From: a virus
DNA length: 29,753 nt
IMG/VR virus record: IMGVR_UViG_3300028548_001226
Location: 1 to 29,753 of that record
Reading direction: 5' to 3' (one strand)
In this document: piece by piece, positions 3,265 to 18,391 of the stretch
Position numbering within the stretch: position 1 is the stretch's first letter
Layout: each line of letters starts with the position of its first letter
Made by a program: the position numbers and the translations under genes
The notes under the pieces: generated by a model
Seen by the model: only the letters and a program-made list of their open reading frames with translations
The model's database searches: none
What the model was told of the DNA's origin: nothing

Positions 3265-3290
3265 AAGCCCATTAACTTGGGCTTTTTATT
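3265..3290 (+). terminator. Rho-independent terminator after lysis genes
   Basis: AAGCCCA (3265-3271) pairs with TGGGCTT (3278-3284) around a six-base loop, followed by further T residues. This is a classic intrinsic terminator closing the late operon, immediately upstream of the first early-type promoter. Confidence 0.85.
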
Positions 3291-3299
3291 GCCTATAGT

Positions 3300-3356
3300 G
3301 TTTACATTTAAGTAAACATAATAGATAATGTACCTACATTCAAAAAACAACAGGGC
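3300..3356 (+). promoter_or_regulatory. Repeated promoter/operator/leader module, copy A
   Basis: The -35 is TTTACA (3301-3306), the spacer is 17 bases, and the -10 is GATAAT (3324-3329). After six more bases comes the leader 3336-3356 (ACATTC, A-rich run, CAGGGC), which contains the AGGG ribosome-binding site of the next gene. A perfect dyad GTTTAC-N6-GTAAAC (3300-3317) covers the -35. The same arrangement recurs at 9593-9648 (plus) and 18332-18277 (minus). The likely transcription start is A3336. The dyad over the -35 implies control by a dimeric repressor. Confidence 0.85.
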
Positions 3357-3362
3357 AGCGCA

Positions 3363-3539
3363 ATGACTAACTACTGGAAAACTTCAGACATAAAAATTTC
3401 TACTGACAGTGCAGGTTATATGTCGGCTGAACATAAATGGGCAGGTCAGCTTATTGACACAGGGTTTTACGAAGATAGAAAGTCATGCAGAAGAGATGCA
3501 GTAGAAATGCTGATGGAAATGAAAGAAGAAGAAAGCTAA
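3363..3539 (+). CDS. Small unknown protein, first gene of cassette A
   Basis: 58 residues, MTNYWKTSDIKISTDSAG to EMLMEMKEEES. ATG 3363 lies seven bases after the AGGG in the conserved leader of promoter copy A, which makes this short frame convincing despite its size. The protein is soluble and charged, with an acidic helical tail; I recognise no family. It is followed by a conserved UNCG hairpin and then the 3576 gene. The same order of elements surrounds the unrelated minus-strand gene at 17947-18270. A function as an early host-interacting accessory protein is only a guess from its promoter. Confidence 0.65.
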   Translation: MTNYWKTSDIKISTDSAGYMSAEHKWAGQLIDTGFYEDRKSCRRDAVEMLMEMKEEES

Positions 3540-3547
3540 ATTCAAAC

Positions 3548-3561
3548 GCCCCTACGGGGGC
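3548..3561 (+). other. Intercistronic UNCG-tetraloop hairpin, cassette A
   Basis: GCCCC, TACG, GGGGC forms a C(UACG)G hairpin, among the most stable RNA tetraloop classes. It lies nine bases after the stop of the 58-residue gene and just before AGGAGG and ATG 3576. A 21-base block beginning at 3542 matches the block before the minus-strand gene at 17908 at 19 of 21 positions. The hairpin there is C(UUCG)G, so the change preserves the UNCG class. Confidence 0.75.
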
Positions 3562-3575
3562 ATTCAGGAGGCAAT

Positions 3576-4022: not shown

Positions 4023-4051
4023 TTACACATAAACCAATAGGAGTGAACACA

Positions 4052-4621
4052 ATGCGTCAAAGTGAAACAATAGAAAAACTAGCTACAGCTTTATGTAAAG
4101 CACAAGCCGTTATGGGTGGGGCTGTTCGCGGATCTGCGAACCCGTTCTTTAAATCAAAGTACGCTGACTTAGCGGACATTATGCAAGTTATAAAAGAACC
4201 CTTTGCAGAAAATGGCCTCAGTTATGTGCAGTTCCCAGCTAGTACTGAGAGTAGCGTGGGCGTAACTACCAGACTAATGCATACATCCGGCCAATGGTTA
4301 GAACAAAAGTTTTTCTTGCCAATGGTTAAAAATGACCCTCAAGCTGGCGGTTCTTGTATTACATACGCAAGACGTTACGCCCTAGCGGCTATGGCTGGAA
4401 TCCCGCAAGTAGATGACGATGCAGAGTCGGCAATGTTACGCGGCGATGATAAGCGAATCATTAACGGGGAGCAGCTTGCCAACATCCTAGCATTGCTAGA
4501 GTCAACCAGCAGCGACCATGAAAAGTTTTGCCAAGCCTTTAAGTGTAAAACAACAGCCTCTTTGTTAGATATACACTACGACAGAGCAATGTCAGCTTTA
4601 GAAGCGAAGTCTAAAAGATGA
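4052..4621 (+). CDS. erf: ERF-family single-strand annealing protein
   Basis: 189 residues from ATG 4052; AGGAG lies eight bases upstream, whereas the upstream in-frame GTG 4043 falls within that site. The protein matches the ERF superfamily: an N-terminal helix (ETIEKLATALCKAQAVMGGAVRGS), the signature NPFFKSKYADLADIMQVIKEPFAENGLSY, and the later GSCITYARRYALAAMAGI (G-x-x-x-T-Y-x-R-R-Y). ERF proteins promote annealing and strand pairing during phage recombination and genome circularisation. The variable C-terminus is short. It overlaps the exonuclease start by four bases, giving the usual annealase-exonuclease pair. Confidence 0.88.
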   Translation: MRQSETIEKLATALCKAQAVMGGAVRGSANPFFKSKYADLADIMQVIKEPFAENGLSYVQFPASTESSVGVTTRLMHTSGQWLEQKFFLPMVKNDPQAGGSCITYARRYALAAMAGIPQVDDDAESAMLRGDDKRIINGEQLANILALLESTSSDHEKFCQAFKCKTTASLLDIHYDRAMSALEAKSKR

Positions 4622-5226
4622 TAGTCAAGCAGGATGAGCAAGGGACTGAGGCGTGGCTAGAATCGCGCCTTGGCAAACCTTCTGCAAGTTGCTTTTCTCA
4701 GTTGATTACTAGAACTGGTAAGCCCAGTGCATCGGCTGATAAATACATCAATAAACTGATTGGTGAAAAGCTAACAGGTAAAGCTGAGCAAGGCTTTAAA
4801 TCCGAAGCAATGGAGCGGGGCAATACACTAGAGCCAGAAGCCCGCGATGAATATTCGTTTATCTATGAAATGGCCGTTAAGGAAGTAGGTTTTATCTTGA
4901 ATGACGACCAAGATTATGGCTGTTCACCTGACGGCTTAATTGATTGCTCAGATAGTGCGGGCGGGTTAGAAATCAAATGCCCTTTGACCACTAACATGGT
5001 GAGATATCAAAGAGACCCGCAGAAGTTAGTTAATGACTATTTCCAGCAGATACAAGGCTGTTTATGGGTAACTGGTCGGGATTGGTGGGACGCTTTTGCA
5101 TGGCATCCAGAGCTTGCCCATGTGTGGATTAGAGTAGAAAGAGATAATGAATTTATTAAAAAACTAGCCGTTGAAGTTGATAAGGCTGTAACTACAATCA
5201 AAACTGAAGTGGAGAAAAGAAAATGA
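4618..5226 (+). CDS. YqaJ/lambda-type recombination exonuclease
   Basis: 202 residues. PD-(D/E)xK nuclease features of the YqaJ family are in order: QGTEAWLESRLGKPSAS (10-24), RGNTLEPEAR (67-76), GCSPDGLI (101-108, catalytic D105) and GLEIKCP (116-122, E118 and K120). The following YFQQIQGCLWVTGRDWWD is the usual Q-x-x-x-x-L motif. The enzyme would resect 5' ends of double-stranded DNA to feed the ERF annealase. It is translationally coupled to erf (ATGA overlap) and to ssb. Length is normal for the family. Confidence 0.9.
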   Translation: MIVKQDEQGTEAWLESRLGKPSASCFSQLITRTGKPSASADKYINKLIGEKLTGKAEQGFKSEAMERGNTLEPEARDEYSFIYEMAVKEVGFILNDDQDYGCSPDGLIDCSDSAGGLEIKCPLTTNMVRYQRDPQKLVNDYFQQIQGCLWVTGRDWWDAFAWHPELAHVWIRVERDNEFIKKLAVEVDKAVTTIKTEVEKRK

Positions 5227-5624
5227 GCAACATTAATCTGATGGTCGCGACTGGAAACGTAGGGCGCGATATGGAAGTTAGAACAACAAAAAATGGTAAG
5301 TCAATCGGCTCCTTCTCAGTTCCTGTCACGCAGGGCTGGGGCGACAATAAGAAGACAAGCTGGGTAGTCTGCAAGATGTTTGGGGAACGCGCTGAAAAGC
5401 TGGCTCCTTACGTTACAAAGGGGACTCCAGTTACTGTTCAAGGTGAATTTGTTCTTGAAGAATGGGAAAAAGACGGCGTGAAGCGCCAAACTGCTGTAAT
5501 GATTGTGAATGGTTTGCAGCTAGGCAAGTCAGGAAACAGTAATGATTCAGCTCCTGCTCCAGTTATTAAGAAGCCTGTTCAAGAAGCATCAAGCATAATG
5601 TTAGATGATGATATTCCATTCTAG
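5223..5624 (+). CDS. ssb: Single-stranded DNA-binding protein
   Basis: 133 residues with an OB fold: MVATGNVGRDMEVR, SIGSFSVPVT, SWVVCKMFGERAEKLAPYVTKGTPVTVQGEF. A disordered Pro/Ser/Asn linker leads to an acidic tip ending DDDIPF, the protein-interaction tail typical of bacterial and phage SSBs. It follows the exonuclease with a four-base overlap, completing an annealase-exonuclease-SSB unit. It protects single strands during replication and recombination and recruits partners through the tip. Length is somewhat shorter than the E. coli protein, as usual in phages. Confidence 0.92.
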   Translation: MSNINLMVATGNVGRDMEVRTTKNGKSIGSFSVPVTQGWGDNKKTSWVVCKMFGERAEKLAPYVTKGTPVTVQGEFVLEEWEKDGVKRQTAVMIVNGLQLGKSGNSNDSAPAPVIKKPVQEASSIMLDDDIPF

Positions 5625-5630
5625 GTAAAT

Positions 5631-5650
5631 CCCCCCCCGAAAGGGGGGGC
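5631..5650 (+). terminator. C/G homopolymer hairpin with GAAA tetraloop after ssb
   Basis: A run of eight C (5631-5638) and a run of seven G (5643-5649) enclose a GAAA tetraloop. The stem is very stable but is followed by CTGTATT rather than a clear U-tract, so termination may be partial, or it may block 3' decay of the recombination mRNA. Homopolymer length is also a place where sequencing error is likely. Confidence 0.5.
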
Positions 5651-5708
5651 TGTATTACTCAAGAGCAGCGCCAGCCGCTCACCAACAATATAACAACTGG
5701 ACAATCAA

Positions 5709-5918
5709 ATGGCAAAGCATATAGACGCAGGTAAAGCAGTAAAGGCCGCACAAGCTAGTAAAGGCATTTCCAACGCTGAGTTCGCCCGTATAGCTAACAC
5801 TTCACCCCAGCAGGTAATCCGCTGGAGAAATCAGTTTAATATGAAGCTGCACACTATGCAGGATGTATGCCAAGTATTGGAGATTGATGTTTTAGACTTT
5901 TTTAGATTAGGTAAATAA
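5709..5918 (+). CDS. Cro/C1-type HTH regulator
   Basis: 69 residues. The central HTH is SNAEFARIANTSPQQVIRWRNQ (about 21-43), followed by LHTMQDVCQVLEIDVLDFFRLGK, the usual third and fourth helices of a small XRE/Cro-like fold. It lacks any oligomerisation or self-cleavage domain, so it resembles a Cro-like or single-domain repressor rather than CI. Nineteen bases after its stop lies a dyad (5937-5952) shared with the repeated promoter module. It is therefore the best candidate in the window for the protein that binds those sites; this is inference. The start is set by length of the fold; its Shine-Dalgarno is weak. Confidence 0.8.
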   Translation: MAKHIDAGKAVKAAQASKGISNAEFARIANTSPQQVIRWRNQFNMKLHTMQDVCQVLEIDVLDFFRLGK

Positions 5919-5936: not shown

Positions 5937-5966
5937 GTTACACAACAGTAAAAAGTATGTTTTAAT
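5937..5966 (+). promoter_or_regulatory. Promoter with regulon dyad, upstream of structured RNA
   Basis: GTTACA (5937-5942) serves as a -35 and TTTAAT (5961-5966) as a -10 with 18 bases between. Sequence 5937-5952 (GTTACA-N4-AGTAAA) matches the 16-bp dyad at 3301, 9593 and 18332. The predicted transcription start falls close to 5974, the first base of the closing helix of the candidate RNA. The downstream leader block of the other copies is absent here. Confidence 0.55.
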
Positions 5967-5973
5967 GTAAAAA

Positions 5974-6098
5974 GTGTTCGGGCTAGAGGCTGAAGAAATC
6001 CTTAAATTAAACTTCAGAGCGTGGTTGACCCTCCAGACATAGCCCCATAGACAGCTCGGTTGCTGTTAGTGGATAGATTGGATATTCGAAACGAACAC
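5974..6098 (+). ncRNA. Candidate structured RNA leader (novel)
   Basis: The 125 bases hold nested complementary segments. P1 is GTGTTCG (5974-5980) with CGAACAC (6092-6098). P2 is GGCTA (5981-5985) with TAGCC (6040-6044). P2b is GAGG (5986-5989) with CCTC (6030-6033). P3 is CTGAAG (5990-5995) with CTTCAG (6012-6017). P4 is ACAGC (6051-6055) with GCTGT (6062-6066). P1, P2, P2b and P3 are immediately adjacent and could stack. No good coding frame runs through it, and a predicted promoter would start at its first base. No terminator follows, so it probably acts as a 5' leader of the downstream genes. It is not a tRNA and I recognise no Rfam family. Helices were found by eye; no folding energy was computed. 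Confidence 0.5.
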
Positions 6099-6108
6099 GA
6101 TTAAACCG

Positions 6109-6157
6109 CAGAGTCACTTACAGTCCTCTGTTACACCAATTTTACTAGCTTGCTAGT
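6109..6157 (+). other. Two further hairpins between structured RNA and HTH gene
   Basis: CAGAG (6109-6113) pairs with CTCTG (6126-6130), and ACTAGC (6144-6149) pairs with GCTAGT (6152-6157) around TT. The second is a near-palindrome just upstream of an AAGGG site and ATG 6171. It could be an operator or a translational control hairpin. The remaining stretch to 6248 holds only the possible N-terminal extension of the next gene. Confidence 0.35.
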
Positions 6158-6248
6158 GAAAGGGTTAAAAATGCCTGTTAAATATTATTTAATAAAAACC
6201 TTCATAAACACAATCGGGCGCGGCGTAGCCAAGCCAAAGGAGTTCAAA

Positions 6249-9145: not shown

Positions 9146-9596
9146 AAAGGTTACAGCACGTAAACCTAAAAAGAAGCCAACCGTTGCCCAAGAAATGGAG
9201 AAAGCCGCTAAGTTGTTGCAGCGGCTAGTCCGGTTAAAGGCAGCAGATGATAACGGCTACGCCCAGTGCGTTACCTGCGACAAGGTAGACCACTATAAAA
9301 ACCTTCAAGGCGGCCACTTTATACCCCGCCACAGAACCATCTTCAAGCTAGCGGAATTCAACATAAACCCACAGTGCCCTCATTGCAATTGCTGGGGTAT
9401 GAAACAGGCTCACTACGTTTTACGCTACAGACAGTGGATGGTTGACACTTATGGAGAAAGGCGCGTTAAGGCGATGGAGCGTATGGCTTGGCGTACGGCA
9501 AAGCGGTACGACAGAGAAGAAGTAATTGCTTTTGCTCGAGACCTTAAAGAACAGATTAAAGTAGAGGAATGGCGAATTGGTGAAATAAGCTGTTGA
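9129..9596 (+). CDS. ninG: NinG-like recombination nuclease
   Basis: 155 residues. A lysine-rich N-terminus (KNPKKVTARKPKKKP) leads to a zinc/HNH-like core. Ligands include C47 and C50 (CVTC), LQGGHFIPRHR with H63, and C83 and C86 (CPHC); NPQCPHCN is also characteristic. This is the lambda NinG/Rap family, a structure-specific endonuclease acting on recombination intermediates. The gene lies with ninB, erf, exonuclease and ssb. Its stop codon (9594-9596) is embedded in the -35 box of promoter copy C, so the downstream gene is independently transcribed. Confidence 0.88.
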   Translation: MAKNPKKVTARKPKKKPTVAQEMEKAAKLLQRLVRLKAADDNGYAQCVTCDKVDHYKNLQGGHFIPRHRTIFKLAEFNINPQCPHCNCWGMKQAHYVLRYRQWMVDTYGERRVKAMERMAWRTAKRYDREEVIAFARDLKEQIKVEEWRIGEISC

Positions 9597-9648
9597 CAGT
9601 AATGTAAACATCAGGCAAAGTTGGCGCACATTCAAAAACAAGCAGGGC
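9593..9648 (+). promoter_or_regulatory. Repeated promoter/operator/leader module, copy C
   Basis: TTGACA (9593-9598), 17-base spacer, CAAAGT (9616-9621), six bases, then leader 9628-9648 (ACATTC, A-rich, CAGGGC). The dyad TTGACA-N4-TGTAAA is at 9593-9608. Spacing matches copies A and B exactly. The -10 is a poor match to consensus, which suggests dependence on another factor or weak activity. It overlaps the ninG stop codon. Confidence 0.75.
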
Positions 9649-9653
9649 TGGAC

Positions 9654-10004
9654 ATGAAGCAAGAAATTAAATGGTTAATTGAAGAGTTTGTTAATTCAGA
9701 TGCTAAGTGGTGCGGTGATATTATCGACCTTTGCGATGCAAAAAAAGATGTTCTATGTTATGAGTGGTTACGAGCCAAGCCGACTTGGATGGATGACTGT
9801 TTGCCAGCAGCAATTACTGGCACTGTCAATCAACTTGCTTATTTAGATACTCTATATCTGCAAGGCTCAGACAAGGCAAGCCTGATGCTTAAAGATGCTA
9901 TCTACCTTGAACTAGAAACATCCCTCAGAGACAGAATCCAAGACCATTACAATGATGAGTTTGGCGGGCAAGATGAGCTAAGTTTTTACGGGAGCAATAA
10001 CTGA
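9654..10004 (+). CDS. Unknown acidic protein under promoter C
   Basis: 116 residues from ATG 9654, six bases after AGGG in the conserved leader. A longer frame from TTG 9621 would begin inside the -10 and transcription start and is rejected. The protein is acidic and helical (EIKWLIEEFVNSDAKWCGDIIDLCDAKKDVLCYEWLRAKPTWMDD, then LKDAIYLELETSLRDRIQDHYNDEFGGQDE). No motif or membrane segment is recognised. Because it shares its promoter with the first genes of cassettes A and B, it is probably co-regulated with them. It is followed by a chain of tiny genes with overlapping stops and starts. Confidence 0.65.
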   Translation: MKQEIKWLIEEFVNSDAKWCGDIIDLCDAKKDVLCYEWLRAKPTWMDDCLPAAITGTVNQLAYLDTLYLQGSDKASLMLKDAIYLELETSLRDRIQDHYNDEFGGQDELSFYGSNN

Positions 10005-11141: not shown

Positions 11142-11240
11142 ATGATTTTCACTTACTGCTTAATTGGCTTAATAGTCTTACTTAATGTCTTATATGTTTT
11201 AAACGCAACTTCACACTTTGGAGATGACAACGATGAATAA
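11142..11240 (+). CDS. Tiny single-TM peptide
   Basis: 32 residues: a hydrophobic helix (MIFTYCLIGLIVLLNVLYVLNAT) and a short acidic tail (SHFGDDNDE). A strong GGGGGA site is five bases before ATG 11142. The stop overlaps the start of the secreted repeat protein by eight bases, so the two could be translationally coupled. No family is recognised; a membrane partner for the downstream exported protein is one possibility. Confidence 0.5.
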   Translation: MIFTYCLIGLIVLLNVLYVLNATSHFGDDNDE

Positions 11241-11592
11241 ATTTATTTTGATTGGATTAACGGCTTGCTTTATTTCCGCAGGCGCTAACGCTACTTGCAC
11301 ATCTAAAACCGATAGCTGGGGCAATACCCGCTACAACTGCGGCGGCACTAGCGGCACTATGACTACTGACAGCTGGGGAAACACTAGAGACTCACGTACT
11401 GGAACAACCTACAAAACAGATACTTGGGGAACTACACGCGGCTCTGATGGGACTAGCTGGAAAACTGATAGTTGGGGAACTACCCGATACAATGACGGCT
11501 CAACTTCAAAGACCGATGCTTGGGGAACCACGCGCCACAGTAACGGGACAAGCTGCAAGACCGATACATGGGGGACAACCAGATGCCAGTAA
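11233..11592 (+). CDS. Secreted WGNTR-repeat protein
   Basis: 119 residues from ATG 11233 (GGAG nine bases upstream). MNKFILIGLTACFISAGANA is a clear Sec signal peptide with an A-x-A cleavage site after A20. The mature part is six tandem units of K-T-D-(S/T/A)-W-G-(N/T)-T-R-x-x-x-G-T-S, with tryptophans at 29, 48, 65, 81, 97 and 113. Spacing settles to exactly 16 residues in the last units, suggesting a beta-solenoid or stacked hairpins. Cysteines lie near both ends (22, 36, 108, 118) and could form disulphides. I recall similar repeat proteins in bacterial chromosomes, so this looks like an acquired host-type gene exported to the periplasm. Function is unknown. Confidence 0.75.
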   Translation: MNKFILIGLTACFISAGANATCTSKTDSWGNTRYNCGGTSGTMTTDSWGNTRDSRTGTTYKTDTWGTTRGSDGTSWKTDSWGTTRYNDGSTSKTDAWGTTRHSNGTSCKTDTWGTTRCQ

Positions 11593-13621: not shown

Positions 13622-14997
13622 TGAGTAAAGACCTAGAATATACACACCCAGAATATGACAATAACAAAAATCGCTGGGAGTTTTATCTTCGCTCTTATAT
13701 GGGCGGTGAAGACTACAAAGATGGCAACTACCTGACCAAGTACATTAATGAAGACCAAGATGAGTACAGACGGCGGATTGACCTAACGCCACTGGATAAC
13801 CACTGCAAGAACATTGTCCACATTTACAGTAGCTTTTTATGGCGACAAGCCCCGACACGTTCATTCCAATCTGCCGCAGGTAACTACGCTCTTACACCTT
13901 TCTTGAAAGATGCTGACTTAGATGGTCGGAGCTTTAACGCTTTCATGCGGGAAGCTGGTGTCTGGTCGAGCGTATACGGCAATGTCTGGATAATGGTAGA
14001 TAAGCCCGAGTCTAATGCCCGCACAAAGGCTGAGGAGCTTGGACAGGACATTCGCCCATATGTAAATATGTTTACGCCTGAGAACGTCCTAGACTGGGAA
14101 TACGAGAGAATGCCGTCTGGTCGATATGAGCTTTGTTACTTCAAGGTCCGTGAATCCATTATGGAAATCAGCGACACTGAAAAAGAGGTTTATTACCGCA
14201 TTTGGACAAAGGACGAAGTTCAGCTATTCAAAAGCATCAATGAACAGGAAACGCACATAAGAACTGAGCCAAACCCGCTGGGCAGAATCCCTGCTGTATT
14301 TCTACCTGCTAACCGTTCGGTGGTTCGGGCTATTGGTATCAGTGACCTGTCAGATGCGGCCTATATGCAGCGTGCTATCTATCAGGAGCTGTCAGAAATT
14401 GAACAGCTTATCCGTATCAGTAACCACCCCACACTGGTTAAGACTTACGAAACTGATGCGAGTGCTGGAGCAGGTGCAGTAATTAATATGCCTGATGATA
14501 TGGATGCGGCGATGAAGCCCTATCAAATACAGCCCAGCGGTCAGAACCTAGACTCAGTAAGGGCATCTATTAATGACAAGGTTGAATACATTAACCGAAT
14601 GTCTCACATGGGCGCTGTACGTGGTACAGAGGCAATCACACAGTCTGGCGTAGCAATGCAAACTGAATTCCAGATGTTAAATGCCAAGCTATCTGAGAAG
14701 GCCGACATACTTGAACTGGCTGAAGAGCAGATTTGGAACCTTTGGTGCGACTACCAAGACCTGACCCCAGACGTTGAAATCTTCTACCCTGATTCGTTTG
14801 ATGTTCGTGACATGGATAAAGAGCTGGTATTCCTTCAGCAGATGCGTTCTACCGGCGTTAAGTCAGTGACCCTAATGCAAGAGATAGATAAAGCGATTGC
14901 TGACCTAGCATTAGACGATGAGAACCTAGCCAAAGCACATTTAGAGATTGAGCAGGGTTCTCAGGTATTGGGGCAGTTCAACGACGAGGCTGAATAA
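13621..14997 (+). CDS. Portal protein (DUF4055-like)
   Basis: 458 residues from ATG 13621, preceded by AGGTGG five bases upstream; the earlier in-frame GTG 13612 lies in that site. The N-terminus YTHPEYDNNKNRWEFYLRSYMGGEDYKDGNYL resembles the DUF4055 portal family (H-P-x-Y plus G-x-x-x-x-K-x-G-x-x-Y-L). Middle segments DLTPLDNHCKNIVHIYSSFLWR and YGNVWIMVDKP, and the long helical LSDAAYMQRAIYQELSEIEQLI, fit the clip and stem regions. A dodecamer at the capsid vertex would be the DNA gate. It is immediately downstream of terL, as expected. Confidence 0.87.
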   Translation: MSKDLEYTHPEYDNNKNRWEFYLRSYMGGEDYKDGNYLTKYINEDQDEYRRRIDLTPLDNHCKNIVHIYSSFLWRQAPTRSFQSAAGNYALTPFLKDADLDGRSFNAFMREAGVWSSVYGNVWIMVDKPESNARTKAEELGQDIRPYVNMFTPENVLDWEYERMPSGRYELCYFKVRESIMEISDTEKEVYYRIWTKDEVQLFKSINEQETHIRTEPNPLGRIPAVFLPANRSVVRAIGISDLSDAAYMQRAIYQELSEIEQLIRISNHPTLVKTYETDASAGAGAVINMPDDMDAAMKPYQIQPSGQNLDSVRASINDKVEYINRMSHMGAVRGTEAITQSGVAMQTEFQMLNAKLSEKADILELAEEQIWNLWCDYQDLTPDVEIFYPDSFDVRDMDKELVFLQQMRSTGVKSVTLMQEIDKAIADLALDDENLAKAHLEIEQGSQVLGQFNDEAE

Positions 14998-17009
14998 TGC
15001 CCACAGATAACCAGTACGATGAGATATTGGATAAGCTTGCTGATACACACCAGCAACGCCTATCCGATGCCCTAGTGACCTTAGAGGAGCGCGTAGCCGA
15101 TGTTATGGCTGACGCTCCGCTTAAAGGTGGGAAGCTGTTTGATACCGAATGGGCTATAAATGCAAGACCTCAGTTGAGGGAAGCTATGGATGATGCTTAC
15201 TTGTCAGAGGTTGACGCAGTTGTTCGCGGCTATGGCGGGGTAGCTACTGATGCGCAAGATATGCTCGGCCAGTATGGTGACTTCACAAAGCTAGACCCTA
15301 GCGTTATTAATCAGCTACAGACTTTATCCTTTCAGGGCTTTGAATCTGTTGCGAATGAATACCTTGATGTTCTAGCAAATGAGGTTTATCAATCAACGCT
15401 AACTGGCAGGTCTTTCAATGATACTGTTAAGAACCTACGGCAGACAATCAACGGCGTTTATATCCAGAGCGATGATGTAGAGGCTCAACGACTGGTTGAT
15501 ATTGTAAACAACGGCACTGCTACAGCGTCAAAGGAAGCGGCTGAACAGCTACGCACCAAGTTCGCTAGAGACAGGGCAGGTAATAACCTTAGACGCTACA
15601 GTACCCAGATGGCACAAGACAGCCTGATGCAGTTTGACGCCAGCATTAACACTGCTATCGGTAAGTCTACAGGTGCTACCAAGTGGAAGTATTATGGCGA
15701 TGTTATTAGGGACAGCAGGCCATTCTGTAGGCAACACGCTGGGCAGGTGTTCACTGATGACGAAATAGAATCAACTTGGTCGGGAAGCTGGCAGGGTAAA
15801 TCATCTGGAGACCCGTTTATTGTTCGCGGTGGTTATAATTGCCGTCACCACTGGCGACCAGTCTTTGACGAAGAAGATATTGTTTCAGAGCCTGAAGTTG
15901 TAGAGCCGCCCAAGCCAAGCCTATCAATACCCGTTGGATTGCCACCGATCAGAAAGAAGAAAGAGATTCAGCAGAGTTTTGACGAGCGCACAAAACAAGC
16001 AAACCTTAAAGGCTCTGCAAATTCAACACAGAGCAGCAGTACCGGATATGTCCTTACATCTGATGGCAACTATGCTACTAGGTTTAATCATGGAGCTTCA
16101 CGCCAAAGGACTCTTAGTTATCAGGACTACAACCAAAAAATAGTAAGCAACAACAACCTGCAAGACTTTACCTCTGAAACCTTGTCACTTGTTCAGCCCA
16201 TTATTGCTGAGACTGATAAAATGGCTAAGGCTTTTGGTGTCCCAAGAATTAGAACCATTGTTCCAACCAAGCAAAAAGCTGTTGCTGACATGGGTGATGG
16301 TGTTCTGGGGTTAAATAAGTCTATCTATAACGGATATGGAAAGAAAGCCTACACAAGTGAGGCCAGCTTACTTGTTGATGAGCTAAAGCTAAACGCTAAG
16401 TTGCAAGAGCTTAACGGTTTATCTGTTTCGCAATATGAGACTTACCTTGCTACAAAAGCTGAATGGAAAGCAATGGCCTCTGGCAATGACAAAGTAAATA
16501 AATTCACAGAGCTGGACGCTTCAATTCAGGCTTACAATAAAACAATAAAAACCGCAGCCGCTACAAGAAAGAAACTTGATGACGCTGTTGCCGCCTCACA
16601 GCCAAAAATTGCCAATCCATACAAAAGGGGCGGAGATAAGGCTAAAAGACCTTTCAATTCAGGTGACTACTTTGCTAAGAATTCAGACCTTGGCAAGACA
16701 ACGATATTCCATGAGTTTGGGCATAACGTACACCAGCAGTATTTCGCAACGAGACAGAACCTTAGAAATCCGCCGATGGAGAAATGGCTAAAAAGTAAAT
16801 TCACAAATAAGTCTTTTTACCCCACAAAGTATTCTGAAGTGAACCCCCAAGAATGGTTTGCTGAAAACTTTGCCCTCTACAACATGGGAAGGAAGGATTT
16901 AGTAGATTCAGACATTAAAGATTTACTTGATGCCATGGTAAAGTCTAAAGGACGCCTGAAAGTACACAAAGGCTTTAACTTTGAAACAGGAGAATATGAA
17001 CGTGGCTAA
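14997..17009 (+). CDS. Head morphogenesis (gp7/Mu F-like) protein fused to zincin metallopeptidase
   Basis: 670 residues. The first 290 form a helical minor-head domain ending with WKYYGDVIRDSRPFCRQHAG (about 230-250) and GGYNCRHHWRPV, the conserved C-R-x-x-x-G and N-C-R-H-x-x-x-P motifs of SPP1 gp7/Mu gpF proteins. A Pro- and Ser-rich linker (about 300-345) leads to an extra C-terminal domain. It has HEFGHNVHQQYF (HExxH at 572-576) and NPQEWFAENFALY (E619 and E623 as third-ligand candidates), the layout of gluzincin-type metallopeptidases. No separate prohead protease is seen in the head operon. Minor head proteins of this family often carry C-terminal enzymes or toxins. It could mature the capsid or be injected. 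Confidence 0.83.
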   Translation: MPTDNQYDEILDKLADTHQQRLSDALVTLEERVADVMADAPLKGGKLFDTEWAINARPQLREAMDDAYLSEVDAVVRGYGGVATDAQDMLGQYGDFTKLDPSVINQLQTLSFQGFESVANEYLDVLANEVYQSTLTGRSFNDTVKNLRQTINGVYIQSDDVEAQRLVDIVNNGTATASKEAAEQLRTKFARDRAGNNLRRYSTQMAQDSLMQFDASINTAIGKSTGATKWKYYGDVIRDSRPFCRQHAGQVFTDDEIESTWSGSWQGKSSGDPFIVRGGYNCRHHWRPVFDEEDIVSEPEVVEPPKPSLSIPVGLPPIRKKKEIQQSFDERTKQANLKGSANSTQSSSTGYVLTSDGNYATRFNHGASRQRTLSYQDYNQKIVSNNNLQDFTSETLSLVQPIIAETDKMAKAFGVPRIRTIVPTKQKAVADMGDGVLGLNKSIYNGYGKKAYTSEASLLVDELKLNAKLQELNGLSVSQYETYLATKAEWKAMASGNDKVNKFTELDASIQAYNKTIKTAAATRKKLDDAVAASQPKIANPYKRGGDKAKRPFNSGDYFAKNSDLGKTTIFHEFGHNVHQQYFATRQNLRNPPMEKWLKSKFTNKSFYPTKYSEVNPQEWFAENFALYNMGRKDLVDSDIKDLLDAMVKSKGRLKVHKGFNFETGEYERG

Positions 17010-17569: not shown

Positions 17570-17908
17570 CTAATTAGCCTCCATAATTCTTAAGCTTTCA
17601 TAAGCGGCCACTTTGTCTACATAACGCTCAACCGGCGCTGGTACTATATAGCCATCTGACAGCTTCAGCATATTGCAGTCGGGGTTACTGTTTACGATAA
17701 TAATATCAACAACCTTAAGCCATTCTGGTTCGCCTGTCAGCGTTACATAATCGCCCTCAAATATAATTAAGCCTCTAGCTTTCTCTTGCCTACGCACTTC
17801 GTCGTACTCGCGCTGAGTTAGCATCTTGAAGCTACCCAAGTGATTATCTTCACAGTAATGGTCGTGGGCTTGGTCTAGCGTTTGCGTGTCTGGTTTTAAA
17901 GTATGCAT
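17570..17908 (-). CDS. Unknown protein, second gene of cassette B
   Basis: 112 residues from the ATG at 17908 (minus strand), with GGAGG five bases upstream. A longer frame to 17941 would start within the UNCG hairpin and is rejected. The N-terminus is helical and polar (TQTLDQAHDHYCEDNHLGSFKMLTQREYDEVRRQEKARG). Then come beta segments (LIIFEGDYVTLTGEPEWLKVVDIIIVNS, KLSDGYIVPAPVERYV), suggesting a small barrel-like domain. I do not recognise the family. It is preceded by the same hairpin block as the 3576 gene, although the two proteins are unrelated. Confidence 0.65.
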   Translation of the reverse strand: MHTLKPDTQTLDQAHDHYCEDNHLGSFKMLTQREYDEVRRQEKARGLIIFEGDYVTLTGEPEWLKVVDIIIVNSNPDCNMLKLSDGYIVPAPVERYVDKVAAYESLRIMEAN

Positions 17909-17925
17909 AATCCCCTCCAAGGGTA

Positions 17926-17939
17926 GCCCCCGAAGGGGC
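17926..17939 (-). other. Intercistronic UNCG-tetraloop hairpin, cassette B
   Basis: On the minus strand GCCCC, TTCG, GGGGC gives a C(UUCG)G hairpin between the stop of the first cassette gene and the Shine-Dalgarno of the second. It matches the copy at 3548-3561 in sequence, in position between genes, and in gap length (38 versus 36 bases). Confidence 0.75.
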
Positions 17940-17946
17940 ATTTGAA

Positions 17947-18270
17947 TTAGTAAGTGTAGTGACCTTCGTGTGCCAACATGCCCATATAGCCGCCAGCAAA
18001 ATCTTTTCTGCTCATAATCTCAGTCTGGTCGAATCCTATTGCGTATCTGTCTAGCTTTGCAATATGAAAGATAACGTATCTAGCTGGCATTACACTATCA
18101 AGCTCTCTGTTGCCAGATTGATACTCAACATCAAAGTAAGCGGCTGCTTTCTGCGCTGTCTTATCCGCTACCTTTGCGGCGGCTTCTATTGTCTTATATG
18201 TTTTGCATGGCGACTTAGTTTCTTCAAGTCTTTTAGAGATTCTGCTCTGTAGAGAAAGAATAATGTTCAT
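17947..18270 (-). CDS. Unknown protein, first gene of cassette B
   Basis: 107 residues from the ATG at 18270 (minus strand), seven bases after AGGG in the conserved leader; the longer frame to 18384 starts upstream of the promoter and is rejected. The N-terminal half is helical and basic (SRISKRLEETKSPCKTYKTIEAAAKVADKTAQKAAAYFD). The C-terminal half has beta character (ARYVIFHIAKLDRYAIGFDQTEIM) and ends GGYMGMLAHEGHYTY. No family is recognised. It is transcribed against the capsid genes from a promoter shared with early genes, so it is probably an early cargo (moron-type) gene. Confidence 0.7.
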   Translation of the reverse strand: MNIILSLQSRISKRLEETKSPCKTYKTIEAAAKVADKTAQKAAAYFDVEYQSGNRELDSVMPARYVIFHIAKLDRYAIGFDQTEIMSRKDFAGGYMGMLAHEGHYTY

Positions 18271-18276
18271 GGGAAA

Positions 18277-18332
18277 GCCCTGTTGTTTTTTGAATGTAGG
18301 AGCATCTTGCCTGTTATTTACATTTATGTCAA
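18277..18332 (-). promoter_or_regulatory. Repeated promoter/operator/leader module, copy B
   Basis: On the minus strand: TTGACA (18332-18327), 17-base spacer, CAAGAT (18309-18304), six bases, leader 18297-18277 identical to copy A over all 21 bases. The dyad TTGACA-N4-TGTAAA occupies 18332-18317. Exact spacing identity with copies A and C supports a common origin. Confidence 0.82.
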
Positions 18333-18391
18333 CACTATCGTAAAAGTATATGCATATGTAGATTTTTTGGTAACAATCGTACATATATAGG
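18333..18391. promoter_or_regulatory. Divergent intergenic region with palindrome ATATGCATAT
   Basis: AT-rich sequence between leftward promoter B and the rightward scaffold promoter. It contains a perfect ten-base palindrome at 18348-18357 and further alternating TA/CA steps. It may be an operator serving either promoter, or simply AT-rich promoter DNA. Confidence 0.3.

Follow-up and report, generated by a model that had tools for sequence, protein, structure and literature searches.

The IMG/VR virus record IMGVR_UViG_3300028548_001226 (29,753 bases, possibly a fragment; the whole of it is referred to here as the window) carries three copies of a promoter module. We read this module as a sigma-70-type promoter joined to a short, nearly G-free and unstructured 5' leader, which together form the constant left side of a slot for exchangeable genes; we give this reading, for which all evidence is comparative, a probability of roughly 0.7. 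The conserved promoter and leader look like an expression signal and a gene-exchange socket at once. An initial annotation, made from the letters of the window alone, had described the three-copy promoter and its leader; the gene swap at the leader, the three fixed positions of the slots ("docks"), the hairpin that closes them, and the inverted repeat over the -35 element were not foreseen in it.

The docks lie after the endolysin (Peptidase_M15) gene (dock 1), after ninG (dock 2), and on the minus strand between the scaffold and minor-head genes (dock 3). The -35 elements of the three promoters stand where initially reported, at 3301 (+), 9593 (+) and 18332 (-), and the promoters share the 17-nucleotide spacer and the six bases between the -10 element and the leader. 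That of copy A (dock 1, 3299..3335, +) has TTTACA at 3301-3306 and GATAAT at 3324-3329; that of copy B (dock 2, 9591..9627, +), which overlaps the end of ninG, has TTGACA at 9593-9598 and CAAAGT at 9616-9621; and that of copy C (dock 3, 18298..18334, -) has TTGACA at 18332-18327 and CAAGAT at 18309-18304. Reading the copies likewise confirmed that the leaders begin at 3336, 9628 and 18297, the first of these being the predicted transcript start of copy A. The leader of copy A (ACATTCAAAAAACAACAGGGC, 3336..3356, +), the left border of its slot, was said to be identical in copy B and nearly so in copy C; instead it is copy C (18277..18297, -) that equals copy A over all 21 bases, while copy B (ACATTCAAAAACAAGCAGGGC, 9628..9648, +) is the deviant one, with 3 mismatches in an ungapped comparison. 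Allowing up to 3 mismatches, the leader matches the window three times and 100 dinucleotide shuffles not once. The description of a conserved block of 21 bases holds for its first 15 or so (ACATTCAAAAAACAA), which are near-invariant in the clade of the window; wider comparison shows that the stretch leading up to the Shine-Dalgarno motif AGGG, itself within the leader, varies with the gene that follows. The genes behind the three copies are indeed unrelated to one another, and across related phages about 35 unrelated families of small proteins take their place.

The main evidence for exchange comes from comparing docks between phages. The 99 modules that could be assigned to a dock lead into 35 downstream protein families (built by single linkage, which may over- or under-merge), seven of which occur at two or more docks; an eighth such family, MTKHELL, was seen by DNA alignment. 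In a three-way alignment, the contig L010, with the MTTFQ gene at dock 1, matches L011, with another gene at the same dock, up to the leader, and matches L005, with the MTTFQ gene at dock 3, from the leader through the gene, identity being lost past GCCCCTTCGGGGGC. The same pattern of joins is found for the dock 1 gene of the window (MTNYWK..., 58 amino acids, 3363..3539, +; function unassigned, no Pfam or PHROG match), which stands at dock 3 in L014, and for the MNNSLL and MTKHELL genes. Across the left joins of these cross-dock alignments, identity is exact over 15-21 bases. The clearest case is a filled and an empty slot, in L082 and L083, where ninG is 100% identical over 432 nucleotides and the promoter and the start of the leader are identical too; beyond this point one contig has an extra gene with a hairpin and the other runs straight into the resident gene. 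Dock 2 of the window is an empty slot of this kind, its leader being followed by the resident gene (116 amino acids, 9654..10004, +); the slot is filled in L010, L037, L082 and others. As judged from these alignments, small genes have been exchanged behind the leader between docks and between phages, with the left joins inside the leader.

The right border is usually a hairpin. A GC-rich hairpin, its tetraloop UUCG or GNRA, stands no more than 45 nucleotides past the stop in 59 of 97 slot genes, which represent 24 of the 35 families. As background, genes that have homologues in the window provided 1,119 stops, of which 37 had such a hairpin; among the 37 are 11 stops of slot genes and 20 that precede it directly after the capsid gene. 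Identity ends at the tetraloop hairpin 3' of the gene in four of the five cross-dock pairs, and in the window clade the Shine-Dalgarno sequence of the next gene usually lies directly 3' of it. At dock 1 of the window the hairpin with core CGCCCCTACGGGGGC (3543..3566, +) closes the slot and marks the right join with L014. At dock 3 the slot gene (MNIILSLQ..., 107 amino acids, 17947..18270, -; PHROG 3633, function unassigned) is closed by the hairpin GCCCC-UUCG-GGGGC (17926..17939, -). A second gene of this dock, called by the open reading frame finder at 17570..17941 (-), probably has its true start downstream of the hairpin; its homologue moved together with a 190-amino-acid gene to dock 2 in L037 and L046. 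This 190-amino-acid gene has travelled between docks 2 and 3 along with its second gene, the right join lying past the hairpin. A long C8-GAAA-G7 hairpin of the same tetraloop style is also present directly 3' of ssb (5630-5652, +). The slot proteins received no named function from Pfam, PHROGs or PADLOC; DUF7249 scored below its cut-off, and a weak PADLOC match (capH, 1e-4) and a weak JetA match were taken as uninformative.

The module recurs in many viral contigs, from a family of uncultured marine phages that carry it at up to three homologous docks. Scans of viral contigs returned 8 stretches with the leader as query and 52 with the full module, one of the latter (L043) being a chance match; five window-clade records scanned whole had two or three exact matches each, and a reversed control pattern had none in 20 records. 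Contigs are fragments, which limits copy counts, and several are near-identical, so that distinct sequences are counted where stated. Dock 1 of a sister clade has promoter-leader-gene units in tandem, with terminators between them in L162, and some endolysin loci have other genes at the dock 1 position. The nearest cultured relatives, the Pelagibacter phages HTVC202P, 111P, 026P and 112P and phage DSL-LC06, are distant (capsid 43-47% and terminase 51-53% identical), and the module is absent from the two that were examined, HTVC202P and DSL-LC06 (L285 and L286). A phage collection searched with copy A gave matches at chance level only. A stricter pattern run over bacteria and archaea, with 84,980 species represented by a single genome each, gave 4 matches, all without other features of the module, and hence no prophage or host source was found.

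The initial annotation had named a lack of leader conservation in related phages as a refuting outcome; the leader is in fact kept in them. For an unbiased estimate, loci were fetched by a neighbouring protein only (NinG, endolysin or capsid) and promoters were located by loose -35 and -10 patterns. Fifty distinct promoter-like sequences were collected at dock 1 (around 80 endolysin loci, up to 450 bp away), and in 47 of them the leader theme WCAWTCAA, in at least 7 of its 8 positions, stands at exactly +35, a match that random 8-mers reach in 0.2% of cases; apart from +35, only the offset +4 gives a score, and there TCAATCAA recurs. Most of the closer relatives, those with a NinG identity of roughly 80% or higher, show the theme at dock 2; it is weaker in distant ones and missing in some, such as L096-L099 and L102. 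Over the 35 downstream families (weighted), leader positions +3, +5, +6 and +7 reach 2 bits and the six bases before the leader 0.2-0.8, values that are inflated because this set was picked with a loose leader pattern, the count of 47 in 50 being the unbiased test. Between the window clade and its sister clades, with promoters chosen without regard to the leader, identity is 67% in the leader and 84% in its core, as against 46% for four-fold degenerate sites of the adjacent endolysin gene, 29% for the discriminator and 31% around the gene start. The leader and its core thus exceed what common descent would leave, and since the sequence stays conserved beyond the predicted start although the six preceding bases vary, the leader is very likely under selection. 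That it is "probably functional", as initially proposed, therefore stands in so far as it is conserved beyond neutral expectation.

The promoters have the marks of sigma-70 recognition, a 17-nucleotide spacer across the set and a TTKAC core in the -35 element, with a -10 element that is often weak (CAAAGT, for example); by these motifs the module promoter is of sigma-70 type, and it is probably an early one. Copies with TTGACA have a weaker -10 element than those with TTTACA (2.47 versus 3.36 by a simple match score over all module loci, kinship ignored), as if promoter strength were held constant. A 20-bp imperfect palindrome, TGTTKACA...GTAAACA, on which the initial annotation was silent, covers the -35 element and spacer in all three copies (TGTTTACATTTAAGTAAACA at 3299-3318 in copy A; 9591-9610 and 18315-18334 in the others); with up to 3 mismatches and both strands counted, the window has 7 matches to its pattern where 0.32 are expected. 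Of its ten pairs, 6.3 form on average in the window clade (3.0 when shuffled) and 4.25 in other clades (2.7 when shuffled), so that it is strong within the clade and weak in the sister clades. Its symmetry and place suggest a putative operator, for which the Cro/C1-type helix-turn-helix protein encoded at 5709..5918 (+; 69 amino acids, PF13443, 29.7 bits, above the cut-off) is a candidate reader only. The palindrome as the sole explanation of the module was rejected, since it is weak in the sister clades. The leader contains 1% G and is predicted to be 91% unpaired, Shine-Dalgarno sequence included. Compared with random leaders, it leaves the start region more accessible in 27 of 35 families, though the effect is modest; the exact sequence of the leader needs an explanation beyond openness.

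We propose that transcription would start at the first leader base, as predicted from the spacing, and that the leader would offer any incoming gene an accessible Shine-Dalgarno sequence and an open start. The annealing system encoded by the phage may then pair the 15-21 leader bases and the hairpin sequence shared by two slots, and so swap the genes between them, while the palindrome over the -35 element may serve a regulator of the phage as a binding site. The genes for this system, an Erf-family annealing protein, a YqaJ nuclease and SSB, lie at 4043..5624 (+; Pfam E-values 7e-24, 1e-27 and 5e-19), and the Erf/Exo system of phage D3 recombines diverged DNA efficiently (PMC3945230). Several observations weigh against this proposal. 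The transcript start is a prediction from spacing; the gain in openness of the start site is small (0.63 versus 0.58); a shared join of 15-21 bp cannot by itself prove exchange driven by homology; some slot genes have no hairpin, and the 190-amino-acid cassette joins beyond its hairpin; and some promoters at these docks have no leader (L129 and L131; L096-L099). In L129 (after 1246) and L131 (after 3229) an extra gene behind the endolysin gene has its own TTTACA promoter and another leader, GTTCTTAAAAAAATAGAGG, from which it follows that not every accessory gene uses the module.

Among the alternatives, it is possible, if a good deal less probable than not, that the leader serves expression only, as a fixed sequence for translation initiation or promoter escape, and that genes are swapped without homology, the survivors being those with an intact leader. 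This would account for a leader that is conserved base by base next to a variable discriminator, that is unstructured through its Shine-Dalgarno sequence, and that also precedes resident genes where no swap took place, as at dock 2 of the window; it accounts poorly for joins that recur at both ends of the unit, the hairpin patch having no obvious need for an exact join, and for the exactness of identity over the left join. We think it unlikely that the leader is an RNA or DNA binding site for a phage or host factor that switches the slots on jointly, in the manner of SAS-type elements, although its core (+2 to +8) is specific, with nearly 2 bits at most positions, and an operator-like palindrome adjoins it. 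The type of leader also tracks the clade of the genome and not the gene (45 of 47 versus 45 of 52, with an approximate cut-off for the clade and with exceptions that are mostly borderline members of the window clade), which fits a co-evolving factor but equally insertion behind a resident leader. Against it, the analysis identified no such factor, the leader gave no signal of pairing with the conserved RNA of the phage described below (mean z 0.16), and a few slot-type genes carry another leader. Similarly doubtful is a combined version in which the leader is a dual-purpose address, needed by a phage factor for expression and serving the annealing system as a landing site; were it true, any gene that lands would be expressed automatically, and the clade-specific versions of the leader would form a partial barrier to foreign exchange. 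That the leader is a recombination patch without a role in expression, kept similar by homogenising recombination, appears improbable: tracking by clade and an identity of about 93% within the clade whatever the dock or gene agree with it, but in every clade it is particular positions that are conserved, in fixed register with the promoter spacing, and the adjoining promoter bases are not homogenised. Chance, or a recent unconstrained duplication within one genome, might have been read from three copies in the window only, two of them identical, and is refuted by the same docks and leader in many contigs, the unbiased dock 1 count and the empty reversed control.

The window further encodes a long tape-measure-like gene and recombination genes of lambda-like kind, and a terminator-like stem-loop, AAGCCCATTAACTTGGGCTT followed by TTTATTG (3265..3284, +), lies between the endolysin gene and promoter A, as it does before dock 1 in window-clade relatives. 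Between two helix-turn-helix genes, positions 5958-6170 (+) hold a conserved structured noncoding RNA that we aligned with 37 homologues. It has 36 predicted pairs, 25 of them changed on both sides, and 97.7% of cells pair, compared with 81% in shuffles and 33-39% when the alignment is slid. Rfam has no match for it or for any other part of the window, no tRNA or tmRNA was identified in it, and a short motif of it occurs in at least 119 viral stretches; it is possibly a new RNA family. The minor-head-like protein at 14997-17009 (+) ends in a HEFGH metallopeptidase motif, its Pfam metallopeptidase matches being below curated cut-offs, and a small protein at 11218-11592 (+), probably secreted, has repeats of about 14 residues such as TDSWGNTRYNDGSTS.

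Both precedents named in the initial annotation, the mycobacteriophage start-associated sequences (SAS) and the T4-type modules, proved relevant. The latter, known as PeSL (Arbiol et al. 2010; Comeau et al. 2014), are summarised in PMC4503421 as mobile regulatory cassettes of promoter and stem-loop that mediate gene shuffling. Our module likewise repeats an early-type promoter, at some sites next to a stem-loop, ahead of variable small genes and, on comparative evidence, mediates their shuffling; the tandem arrays of sister clades, with terminator and promoter (L162), add to the likeness. The stem-loop stands beside the promoter before dock 1 and between tandem units, and none precedes dock 2. 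The module differs from PeSL in belonging to another phage lineage, nearest to Pelagibacter phages of the HTVC202P type and outside the T4-type myoviruses, and in having its joins in a transcribed leader, fixed docks, and a tetraloop hairpin as second border. In the archaeal virus HGTV-1, PeSL-like motifs that combine a conserved promoter motif with an inverted repeat before many open reading frames have also been proposed to drive shuffling (PMC3950731); their promoter is archaeal and TATA-like, and the passage on them describes no leader border. The SAS and ESAS of cluster K mycobacteriophages resemble the leader as a conserved sequence that bears a Shine-Dalgarno motif before unrelated genes (35 families here), and SAS sometimes has an upstream inverted repeat. 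SAS is a 13-bp sequence, GGGATAGGAGCCC, situated 3-7 bp from the start codon in 11-19 copies per genome (PMC3203893), whereas the nearly G-free leader differs from this consensus, is locked to a promoter and is present in about three copies. With the boundary sequences of lambdoid phages, which have long been postulated to explain phage mosaicism but are rarely observed (PMC3029335), the module shares a short common patch at its joins, in the leader and at the hairpin; in this case one can see both borders, of which the left doubles as a 5' untranslated region. No integrase of the kind that would point to an integron-type cassette was recognised in the part of the window genes that was scanned, and we found no earlier description of the module among the open-access papers searched, a scope outside which the key original papers lie.

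The module works like PeSL and the lambdoid boundary sequences and is a separate system; it illustrates clearly the boundary sequences postulated for phage mosaicism. The question of how mosaic joins form, through homology over short patches or through random joining with later selection, is long-standing and can seldom be resolved, as module boundaries usually show no patch. In the present case joins can be seen at either end, they recur in several gene families, a filled and an empty slot can be paired, and the phages encode a known annealing system, so that the question becomes directly testable. The slots also provide a list of small genes of unassigned function in rapid exchange, a pattern that would be expected of genes for host takeover or counter-defence.
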